Part shown: piece by piece, positions 1-2,802 of the stretch
Numbering within the stretch: position 1 is the first letter of the stretch
How the letters are laid out: every line of letters starts with the position of its first letter
IMG/VR virus record: IMGVR_UViG_3300011114_000159
Coordinates: 1 to 22,172 of that record
DNA from: a virus
Strand: one strand, 5' to 3'
DNA length: 22,172 bases
The notes under the pieces: model-generated
The model's input: the letters and a program-made list of their open reading frames with translations, nothing else
What the model was told of the DNA's origin: nothing
Database searches by the model: none
Position numbers and translations under genes: made by a program

Positions 1-20
1 GCTCGACTTAAATTGCCGTG

Positions 21-59
21 ATATATGGCATATATGGCCTATAACGCGATTGGCGTTAT
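21..59. repeat. Tandem 9-bp repeat plus inverted repeat near the left end
   Basis: ATATATGGC occurs twice back to back (21-29 and 30-38). It is followed by an inverted repeat, ATAACGC (41-47) and GCGTTAT (53-59), with a 5-bp spacer. A TATAAT hexamer lies at 57-62, eight bases before the ATG at 70. The arrangement looks like a small operator or promoter region, but no convincing -35 box is present. Regulatory function is inference only. Confidence 0.3.
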
Positions 60-69
60 AATCGCGGGC

Positions 70-270
70 ATGAAGGGTAGACCATGCAAAATTGACACGA
101 TAGCCTTTCGGCGCCCGCTGACGCCAGTAGCGCGCGCGGTATTGTTAGCAGCTGGCGCCGGCGATCTTTCGCAAGGCTGGCATGAGATTTTAGCGATCTA
201 CCAGCACTTGCACGCGCTAGGGTACCGCCCTGGTATGCGCCCTGAAAATATAGCGTTAGTGAAAAAATAG
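70..270 (+). CDS. Small hypothetical phage protein upstream of the repeat array
   Basis: This is a 66-residue protein if translation starts at the ATG at 70; the frame is open from an ATG at 25, which would give 81 residues. The 70 start is preferred because the MKGRP-type N-terminus looks like a natural beginning, and the upstream 15 residues are encoded by the repeated ATATATGGC segment. Neither start has a clear Shine-Dalgarno site. The protein is basic at its N-terminus (KGRPCK), with a predicted helical middle and a C-terminal segment HLHALGYRPGM. It resembles short hypothetical proteins I recall near phage terminase genes, but no function can be assigned. It lies alone on the far side of the repeat array from the terminase genes. 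Confidence 0.5.
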   Translation: MKGRPCKIDTIAFRRPLTPVARAVLLAAGAGDLSQGWHEILAIYQHLHALGYRPGMRPENIALVKK

Positions 271-286
271 GGCATAAAGGCCGCTG

Positions 287-311
287 CCCACATACTTTTT
301 AGGTATATGGG
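287..311. other. Imperfect hairpin between the first gene and the array
   Basis: CCCACATAC (287-295) can pair with GTATATGGG (303-311), giving nine positions with one C-A mismatch and a 7-nt loop (TTTTTAG). The downstream sequence TTAAAATTC is not a clean U-tract, so this is at best a weak terminator for the small upstream gene. Confidence 0.25.
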
Positions 312-322
312 TTAAAATTCAA

Positions 323-960
323 TGGCCTGGTGGCGCTGGCCTGATGGCCTGATGGCCTGATGGCCTGATGGCCTGATGGCCTGGTGGCCTGATGGCCTGA
401 TGGCCTGATGGCCTGATGGCCTGATGGCCTGATGGCCTGGTGGCCTGATGGCCTGATGGCCTGATGGCCTGATGGCCTGATGGCCTGATGGCCTGATGGC
501 CTGATGGCCTGGTGGCCTGATGGCCTGGTGGCCTGATGGCCTGATGGCCTGGTGGCCTGATGGCCTGGTGGCCTGATGGCCCGCTGGCCCGCTGGCCTGG
601 TGGCCTGATGGCCTGATGGCCCGCTGGCCTGATGGCCTGATGGCCCGCTGGCCTGATGGCCTGATGGCCCGCTGGCCTGGTGGCCTGATGGCCCGCTGGC
701 CTGGTGGCCTGATGGCCCGCTGGCCCGCTGGCCTGGTGGCCTGATGGCCTGATGGCCCGCTGGCCTGATGGCCTGATGGCCCGCTGGCCTGATGGCCTGA
801 TGGCCCGCTGGCCCGCTGGCCTGGTGGCCTGATGGCCCGCTGGCCTGGTGGCCTGATGGCCCGCTGGCCCGCTGGCCCGCTGGCCCGCTGGCCCGCTGGC
901 CCGCTGGCCCGCTGGCCCGCTGGCCCGCTGGCCCGCTGGCCCGCTGGCCCGCTGGCCCGC
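323..960. repeat. 80-unit array of an 8-bp tandem repeat in three variants
   Basis: The block is built from head-to-tail octamers TGGCCTGA, TGGCCTGG and TGGCCCGC. From 337 to 960 there are 78 units in perfect 8-bp register. The left edge has one further unit (323-330) and a 6-bp degenerate unit (331-336). Variants are not randomly mixed: 337-576 has only TGGCCTGA and TGGCCTGG; 577-856 mixes all three, often as 24-bp triplets ending in TGGCCCGC; 857-960 is 13 identical TGGCCCGC units. Every full unit contains GGCC, and TGGCCTGG adds CCTGG. TGA occurs in the units, so the plus strand is closed in all frames, while the minus strand has no stop in any frame. The array lies just upstream of the terminase small subunit gene. 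Function is unknown; a packaging or terminus-related site and a slippage- or recombination-expanded repeat are both possible. Confidence 0.97.
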
Positions 961-983
961 TGAATGTTGCAGCGCAGCATAGG

Positions 984-1031
984 GGGGAGGGGGTATTGGC
1001 TGGCGCGTAAACTTTGCGGTGCCCCCTCCCC
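984..1031. other. GC-rich hairpin between the array and the terminase genes
   Basis: GGGGAGGGGG (984-993) is perfectly complementary to CCCCCTCCCC (1022-1031), giving a 10-bp G/C stem around a 28-nt loop. No T-run follows on either strand, so it is not a typical intrinsic terminator. Farther on, TACTTGCA is repeated directly at 1063-1070 and 1097-1104, 34 bp apart. Placement immediately before the small terminase gene makes a packaging-related role conceivable but unproven. Apart from this, 961-1144 holds nothing I recognise. Confidence 0.45.
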
Positions 1032-1144
1032 TCTGAAAAACGGAAAACGGGCAACCGGAAACTACTTGCAGACTGTGGAAAAAAGAGCAAGCAAGATACT
1101 TGCAACCGCGCAATAGCGATTTCGCTGGTGATGAGTTATATTCC

Positions 1145-1546
1145 ATGGCAAATAAGGCATATATGGACAATCCACCGGTGATAGACGGTAGACCCAAGCG
1201 GTATCGAGCGCCGAAGGTGCTGCCGAAGACGGACTACCAGCGTTTGAATGAGCTGAAGCAGATGCTGCTGGACAGCAGTGGTCGGCGCGTAGTGCAGAAG
1301 GTGGTAGACATTGCGATGGACGACGGGCATCCGAGCCAGATGGCCGCGCTGAAGTTGTGTATGGAGCGCACGCTGCCGGTCAGCTTGTTTGAGAAGGACA
1401 AGGGGCACCGTGGTGCTGTGACGATCAACATTACTGGTATCGGTGAAGTCACCGCCAGCGCGGTCATAGACGCAACACCGGAACCGGAAGATGTAGAAGA
1501 AGAAGCAGACACCGACACCAAAGCCAACACCAAGGACGCGACCTGA
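1145..1546 (+). CDS. terS: Terminase small subunit (putative)
   Basis: The small terminase recognises phage DNA and hands it to the large terminase for cutting and packaging. The protein is 133 residues from the ATG at 1145. Alternatives are a TTG at 1100 (no ribosome site) and an ATG at 1163 (AAGG five bases upstream); the choice is not settled. A basic N-terminal stretch (GRPKRYRAP) precedes helices containing QMLLDSSGRR and HPSQMAALKLCMER, then a beta segment (AVTINITGIGEV) and an acidic tail rich in E and D. That layout and the HPxQMAALKxCMxR motif fit phage small terminases I recall. The TGA overlaps the ATG of the large terminase (TGATG at 1544-1548), which suggests translational coupling. 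The repeat array and GC hairpin lie directly upstream. Confidence 0.78.
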   Translation: MANKAYMDNPPVIDGRPKRYRAPKVLPKTDYQRLNELKQMLLDSSGRRVVQKVVDIAMDDGHPSQMAALKLCMERTLPVSLFEKDKGHRGAVTINITGIGEVTASAVIDATPEPEDVEEEADTDTKANTKDAT

Positions 1547-2802
1547 TGGCCGACCTGAACTTCAGCCTGCTTCCCTGGCAGCAAGAGGTCTTCAAGGACA
1601 CGACGCGGTTCAAGGTGATTGCGGCTGGCCGGCGTTGCGGCAAGTCAAGACTGGCGGCAACGACGTTGCTGATCGAGGCACTGCGCTGCCCGCAGGGATC
1701 CGCGGTGCTGTATGTCAGCCCGACCATGGGTCAGTCCAGGCAGATCATCTGGGATCTGCTGCTGGATCTGGGGCGGGAGGTGATCCAGTCTAGCCATGTA
1801 AACAATCTGGATATCACGCTGATAAATGGCGCGCGCATCTACGTCAGGGGCGCCGACCGGCCGGACACGCTGCGCGGGGTGAGTTTGACCTATGCCGTGC
1901 TGGATGAAGTGGCCGATATCAAGTCGGAAGCGTGGGAGCAGGTCATTCGGGCCTCTTTATCAGACAAAAAAGGCCGCGCGATCTTCATTGGCACCCCAAA
2001 AGGGCGCAATTGGTTCTTCGATCTGTTCAATTTAGGTAAAAATGAGACAGATTCGGACTGGAAGAGCTGGCACTTCACGACCAAAGACAACCCGATGATT
2101 GACCCGGACGAGATCGAGAGCGCGAAGAAGACGCTTTCGAGCTTCTCGTTCAAGCAGGAATACATGGCGAGCTTTGACACCGCTGGCAGCGACGTGTTTA
2201 AAGAGGAGTGGCTGAAATATGGCGAGGAACCAGAAGTCGGCAGCTATTACATCGCGTGCGACCTTGCCGGGTTTGAAGAAGTTGCCAAGCAAGCGGCGAA
2301 CTCGCGCAAAAGGCTTGATGAAACCGCCATCGCGGTGGTCAAGGTTGTGGATGATGGCAAGTGGTGGGTTAAAAAGATTGAGCACGGCCGTTGGGATATC
2401 AAGGAAACGGCCTCCAACATCCTGACCGCAATACGGGACTATCGTCCTCTGGCGGTCGGAATCGAGCGCGGGGCGTTAAAAAACGCTGTTTTGCCGTATT
2501 TGAGTGACTTAATGCGGAAAAACAATGTATATTCCCATATTATTGACCTGACACATGGCAACCGCAAAAAGGCCGACCGGATCATATGGGCGTTACAAGG
2601 CCGTTTCGAGCATGGGCGGGTTATCCTCAACAGTGATGAGGATTTTGATGAATTTGTGGATCAGTTGTTGATGTTTCCCGCGCAGGGCGTGCATGACGAC
2701 CTGCCCGACGCGCTATCTTATATAGACCAGTTGGCGATAACGTCGTATTTTGAAGATCAGGAAGACACCTGGTTGCCGATCGACGTAGTGTCGGGAGTCT
2801 AA
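1546..2802 (+). CDS. terL: Terminase large subunit (ATPase and nuclease)
   Basis: This is the packaging motor: an N-terminal ATPase drives DNA into the procapsid and a C-terminal RNase H-like nuclease cuts the concatemer. In the 418-residue protein the Walker A motif is GRRCGKS (28-34), Walker B is LTYAVLDE (114-121, with D120 and E121), and a coupling motif GTPKGR lies at 149-154. Candidate nuclease acidic residues are D239 in YIACDLA, E307 in VGIERGA and D384/D385/D388 in HDDLPDAL. The length is near the short end for terminases, but both domains appear intact. It overlaps the small subunit gene by one base and is followed two bases later by the portal gene, the usual packaging order. Function is secure from the motifs; the packaging strategy (headful, cos or terminal repeat) cannot be read from it. 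Confidence 0.96.
   Translation: MADLNFSLLPWQQEVFKDTTRFKVIAAGRRCGKSRLAATTLLIEALRCPQGSAVLYVSPTMGQSRQIIWDLLLDLGREVIQSSHVNNLDITLINGARIYVRGADRPDTLRGVSLTYAVLDEVADIKSEAWEQVIRASLSDKKGRAIFIGTPKGRNWFFDLFNLGKNETDSDWKSWHFTTKDNPMIDPDEIESAKKTLSSFSFKQEYMASFDTAGSDVFKEEWLKYGEEPEVGSYYIACDLAGFEEVAKQAANSRKRLDETAIAVVKVVDDGKWWVKKIEHGRWDIKETASNILTAIRDYRPLAVGIERGALKNAVLPYLSDLMRKNNVYSHIIDLTHGNRKKADRIIWALQGRFEHGRVILNSDEDFDEFVDQLLMFPAQGVHDDLPDALSYIDQLAITSYFEDQEDTWLPIDVVSGV

Follow-up and report, generated by a model that had tools for sequence, protein, structure and literature searches.

The octamer array and its surroundings

Beside the terminase genes of this virus stands a long run of octamers, which raises the question of whether it is a site that a protein reads, a product of assembly, or a repeat that the genome tolerates. 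The whole stretch of DNA analysed (22,172 nucleotides) is called the window below; the features at its left end are as follows.

70-270, + strand: ORF66, a small conserved protein of 66 aa that adjoins the array or spacer in ~128 relative loci
323-336, + strand: array edge units, TGGCCTGG at 323-330 and then TGGCGC at 331-336 (read from the sequence)
337-960, + strand: octamer run in three variants, 40 TGGCCTGA, 12 TGGCCTGG and 26 TGGCCCGC
~979-1040, + strand: conserved G-tract/C-arm element of ~64 bp, probable cos region (alignment A1)
1018-1023, + strand: GGTGCC, predicted cut or cohesive-end core (by analogy with the ends of contig G017)
1074-1082, - strand: single DnaA-box-like TTTTCCACA, weak and not above chance in this genome (G001:10238)
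1145-1546, + strand: terS, small terminase by position, start ATG 1145 or 1163
1546-2802, + strand: terL, terminase large subunit (Pfam Terminase_6N, phrog_2)

The preliminary description had counted 78 in-register octamers of three variants with two edge units, and this was confirmed by the sequence and by TRF (322-957, period 8, 79.8 copies, score 810). The 78 octamers at 337-960 are in perfect register, the TGGCGC ahead of them being a 6-base register break; no variant beyond the three occurs at 337-960, and none of the three was found outside the array within the 22,172-b window. The final 13 octamers, beside the element, are all TGGCCCGC, and duplicated blocks of 3-7 units occur inside the array. 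The longest exact period-8 run measured 98 bases, whereas none of 30 first-order Markov resamples exceeded 9, which excludes a chance origin. The array occupies a non-coding spacer bounded by ORF66 on one side and by the ~64-bp element upstream of terS on the other. A coding role was rejected, as the minus frames are open merely through the repeat and the units differ in relatives. A promoter scan of window positions 1-1700 returned nothing above chance.

The terS product matched no family and none of 50,697 phage records, its structure model was of low confidence (pLDDT 59), and the same comparison yielded no cultured relative of the window phage. The genome also encodes DNA polymerase A, a DUF5906 primase-helicase, a beta-clamp-like protein, an SNF2 helicase and a PD-(D/E)XK exonuclease (DUF2800/phrog_69). 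One TerL relative was found in a betaproteobacterial MAG, a weak hint of a betaproteobacterial host. At L213:14518-14979 (G001 34518-34979), a protein showed a weak Mom-like match below the Pfam cut-off, a possible sign of DNA modification.

A conserved element upstream of terS is a probable cos site

The element consists of a G-tract, an A, a second G-tract, ~24 bp, GG(T/A)(G/A)CC, a C-rich arm and an A-run, with nearly fixed internal spacing (alignment A1); the window carries GGTGCC at the GG(T/A)(G/A)CC place. It was found in 118 of the 123 relatives with enough DNA, and two more had one-base variants; elsewhere in 978 kb it did not occur. In most relatives it lies ~80-240 b upstream of terS, otherwise upstream of inserted genes. 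In columns ~46-60 of alignment A1, GGTGCC, GGAGCC, GGTACA, GTACCC and GTAGCC vary combinatorially between constant flanks, variation that may reflect cohesive-end diversity.

The full-length contig G017 (35,540 b) has both ends within its element, and they overlap by exactly 6 b. It starts GGTGCCTCCCCC and ends ...GATGGTGCC (longer rendering ...GATAACGATGGTGCC), GGTGCC being common to both ends, and such an exact 6-b overlap is unlike a k-mer overlap product. A random break inside the element has a probability of ~0.002, or a few percent overall given the ~15 full-length contigs looked at. The end of contig L389 and the start of L056 fall a few bases from the same spot. Because G017 begins and ends at GGTGCC within the element, the element is probably a cos site and the array subterminal. 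For the window phage, moderate evidence by analogy with G017 suggests that GGTGCC (1018-1023) forms the core of this site, and the placement draws mainly on that one contig. The circular assemblies G003, G006 and G011 (end overlaps of 99-127 b; complete genomes of the group are ~35-36 kb) run through the cut site, and other full-length contigs break away from the element. Near the element, most contig ends do not coincide with the cut but are spread over the spacer, as repeats and strain variation would produce. A unique physical end across many contigs was rejected, as ends scatter over both spacer and element.

The array had been described as lying between two potential hairpins. The arms of the right one (984-995 and 1020-1031) pair perfectly in the window; however, RNAalifold over the elements of 36 relatives found no conserved structure and predicted no pair, and an Rfam search gave only chance matches far below threshold. 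A conserved RNA or hairpin was thus discarded.

Arrays recur at one place with changing units

The surroundings of the element were scanned at 125 loci (TRF score of at least 80, at least 3 copies, distances counted from the element). Within the 750 b on the left side of the element, 2,334 b belonged to qualifying arrays, compared with 0 b in ~500 kb to its right and 0 b in ~190 kb farther left. In this phage group, tandem arrays are thus nearly confined to ~700 bp on the left of the element, with none on the right, and their units differ nearly every time:

Window: TGGCCTGA
L011: GGCTCGTC
L013: TGGC/CCGC mixtures
L138: TGGCCGTG
L017: CTCGAGCTCGTCCGG
L018: ATCGCCC
L145: CGCCCGCT
L095: CACCAGGC
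L105: GCCGCCTA
L110 and L126: AGCCCCA

L017 and L018 have identical TerL yet different units, and L016 and L104 have no array despite the same neighbourhood. On the TerL tree, presence and absence of an array require at least 17 changes (gains or losses): L013, with an array, is sister to L016, with none, and the array-less L104 falls within the window's group. Where units change, flanking identity is 94-95% for ORF66, 82-95% for TerS, 96-100% for TerL and 81-91% for DNA polymerase; ORF66, polymerase and helicase-primase together span 73-95%. The presence of TGGCCCGC in the spacers of the window, L011 and L013 indicates that some of this turnover took place inside arrays already inherited, and the identical array of L013 and L014, which come from two metagenome records, indicates that turnover is not always fast. 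Period 8 predominates in the window's clade, and periods 7 and 8 in the next.

The search of relatives upstream of terS that the preliminary description had proposed thus found arrays at the same place, but with other units or with none. L016 and L104 supply part of what it had named as contrary evidence, namely the same terS neighbourhood without an array.

These data bear directly on a packaging function, in which the array would be a cosB- or pac-like recognition region bound by TerS. With 57 b between its end and the probable cut, and with terS nearby, the array has a position that would suit such a region; however, the cut separates it from terS, and the element is conserved where the array is not. 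Moreover, the unit is replaced or absent alongside nearly the same TerS and TerL, and the repeat sequence is not conserved together with TerS, as a pac or cosB site would be, even at 82-95% TerS identity. We consider TerS recognition of the array quite improbable. What survives of the suggested role in packaging or genome termini is the position near a probable cut; a sequence-specific packaging role is not supported, as the unit changes or is missing. Restriction or methylation acting on the GGCC of each unit, also suggested, was dismissed, either as a role or as a decoy, as the units of several relatives (GGCTCGTC and ATCGCCC among them) have no GGCC.

Copy number and the reality of the array

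The window is 99.8% identical over 21.66 kb to G001, a 35,117-b contig whose array (locus L009) has 54 units against 78 in the window and includes a fourth variant, TGGCTCGC, that is absent from the window array. Since G001 carries the same kind of array, that of the window is no artefact of a single assembly. Mismatches between the two number 3 in 21,212 bases on the right side of the array and 13 in 322 on the left side (window 1-322), nearly all of the latter being silent changes in ORF66. The drop in identity, 99.99% to 96%, coincides exactly with the array, and either recombination or an assembly strain switch may explain it. A general role of the spacer as a mosaic boundary was rejected, because identities left and right of the spacer correlate (0.66) almost as well as those of the right-right control (0.74).

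An array largely produced by assembly, through a wrong path in the repeat graph or a strain chimera, would account for this switch in mismatches and for the frequent breaks of contigs within the spacer. The longest repeats within the array, at 117 b (window) and 119 b (G001), also fall just under k=127, a common short-read assembly limit. Against this, independent assemblies have arrays at the same place, many of them too short for the effect, and differing units cannot derive from one template. We give this explanation very little credence. Because of the same internal repeats, the exact copy number is uncertain and the reported figure may be too low; it is the length of the array that is in doubt, and not its existence.

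The spacer as a possible origin or control region

The main rival to a satellite, and a live one although we think it unlikely, is that the spacer serves as the origin of replication or for late control, the array being a set of iterons for an initiator or regulator whose sites differ by clade (DnaA boxes, AAACCCT motifs, GGC/GCC-cored 7-8-mers). TTATNCACA boxes numbered 82 in the 32 kb that lie at most 250 b left of the element (2.56/kb versus 0.01-0.13/kb elsewhere), at least two TT[AG]TCCACA boxes were present in 27 of 130 relatives, and a Fur-like palindrome was present in 33 of 130 and absent from 815 kb elsewhere, all of these being counts of loci and not of events among relatives that are not independent. 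Further motifs are enriched in the spacer, and in L204 and L170 DnaA boxes flank an AT-rich stretch on both sides. However, the DnaA-box cluster is absent from the window phage, some close relatives have no array of any kind, and the GC-skew minima near the element, to be read with caution, are not uniform and follow gene direction. The replication proteins and ORF66 stay alike while the units change completely; iterons would be expected to persist with their initiator, and here the direct repeats change while ORF66, polymerase and helicase-primase persist. A control or origin function of the spacer is also probable, and sites of this sort may have given rise to the array or been displaced by it.

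Two further observations concern these motifs. In L204, L170, L203 and L364 (element -420 to 0), boxes lie on either side of an AT-rich stretch in a small-oriC-like arrangement. The Fur-box-like palindrome has the form TGMGAAYNATTCKCA, for example in L034, upstream of the element.

ORF66 as a candidate array-binding protein

The AlphaFold model of ORF66 shows an extended N-terminus followed by helices at 19-28 and 33-49, an order of elements that is ribbon-helix-helix (RHH)-like but unconfirmed. Searches of Pfam, NCBIfam, PHROGs and PDB gave no match, BFVD returned only uncharacterised proteins of uncultured Caudovirales, and the RHH_1 and Arc profiles did not match; only the model topology agrees with the RHH class. 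Omega places one RHH dimer on each 7-bp repeat of arrays that contain 7-10 of them (PMC9499535). By comparison, ORF66 might coat the 7-8-bp units cooperatively and control the terminus, a late promoter or partition. It adjoins the spacer throughout the group, its predicted topology is strand-helix-helix, periods of 7-8 are favoured, and most GC-rich units contain GGC/GCC words. Nevertheless, neither RHH_1, Arc and other families nor PDB provided a match, and ORF66 is 94-95% identical where the units differ entirely. Such coating by ORF66 is, in our view, improbable.

A proposed hypervariable subterminal satellite

The explanation that we favour, at a little better than an even chance, is that the array is a hypervariable, non-coding, expendable tandem-repeat satellite just left of the probable cos. 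The packaged linear genome would then have terS at one end and the array ~60-700 b from the other. Replication slippage, together with misaligned annealing or recombination, would create, spread and replace units and alter their copy number, and resection of terminase-made ends by the phage exonuclease would plausibly promote annealing. The unit sequence would be no recognition site, and the spacer would tolerate the array. That the unit is no specific site follows from its change while TerS, TerL, ORF66 and the replication proteins change little; we infer dispensability and the slippage/annealing mechanism, with which the 13 terminal TGGCCCGC units and the duplicated blocks of 3-7 units agree. 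The recombination-driven expansion proposed earlier is well supported as change by recombination or slippage, given the 78 versus 54 units and the differing variants of the window and G001.

Two findings speak against a satellite and hint at a binding-site function: periods of 8 and of 7/8 are favoured despite changing units, and DnaA boxes and Fur-like palindromes occupy the same spacer in other clades. A further possibility is a nucleoprotein platform that has a function and keeps a period of 7-8 bp but not the letters; ORF66 or another small protein would coat the genome end cooperatively, and the unit would drift and be swept by annealing at cos-made ends. We see a rather slim chance of this. 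If true, the coat could protect, position or regulate the terminus, and the phage would possess a telomere-like satellite in subterminal position.

Under the satellite explanation, a common uncultured freshwater phage lineage would have a fixed place for the birth, spread and replacement of tandem repeats beside its probable terminus, and repeat turnover at DNA ends would become testable in a small genome. The lineage also gains a candidate cos site, and related phages are seen to swap arrays, DnaA boxes and other sites in their terminal spacers without change in the flanking genes.

Comparison with known repeat systems

Phage T7 has short repeat arrays beside its terminal repeats, known as SRL and SRR. 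At 174-245 of T7 (NC_001604), TRF detected units of 13 bp that include CCTAAAG, and it detected related units at 282-340. The earlier statement that no phage element of this kind had been described is therefore too strong. Short tandem repeats immediately within the termini of a linear genome of a tailed phage would be common to both, the terminus of the window phage being a predicted one. However, T7 ends in direct terminal repeats and the window phage probably in a cos cut, and the T7 arrays are short and imperfect, whereas those described here are exact, of up to 78 units and replaced between sister genomes. Subterminal repeats were thus already known from T7, and it is the turnover of units that is unusual here.

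Like cos sites of the lambda/HK97 type, the element is a conserved cis-element upstream of terS at which a linear contig ends with a short shared sequence; unlike them, the overlap is short (6 b) and the array lies across the predicted cut from terS. We know of no cos site that the element sequence matches. Iteron and DnaA-box origins share the clustered short direct repeats between modules, with DnaA boxes in the spacer of related clades, but the window phage has no DnaA cluster and its units vary faster than any candidate initiator. In omega/parS of pSM19035, contiguous 7-bp repeats adjoin the gene of a small DNA-binding protein (PMC9499535), which ORF66 is predicted to be at most; the omega repeats keep their consensus, whereas the unit of the window group changes, the RHH fold of ORF66 is putative, and no partition ATPase was identified among the genes examined. 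Bacterial short-sequence-repeat (VNTR) loci likewise differ in copy number and variant order between near-identical genomes, but the phage arrays recur at one conserved position with different units each time.

A scan of viral contigs for TTTGCGGTGCCCCC gave mostly unrelated matches. TGGCC-type octamer arrays were present in the viral contigs L089, L092 and L096-L099; the stretches examined of these contigs contained no relative of TerL, TerS or ORF66. Within one clade (L147, L152, L164, L168 and L178), a second cluster of 10-bp direct repeats of the CATCCGAAAC type lies ~1,000-1,250 b upstream of terS.
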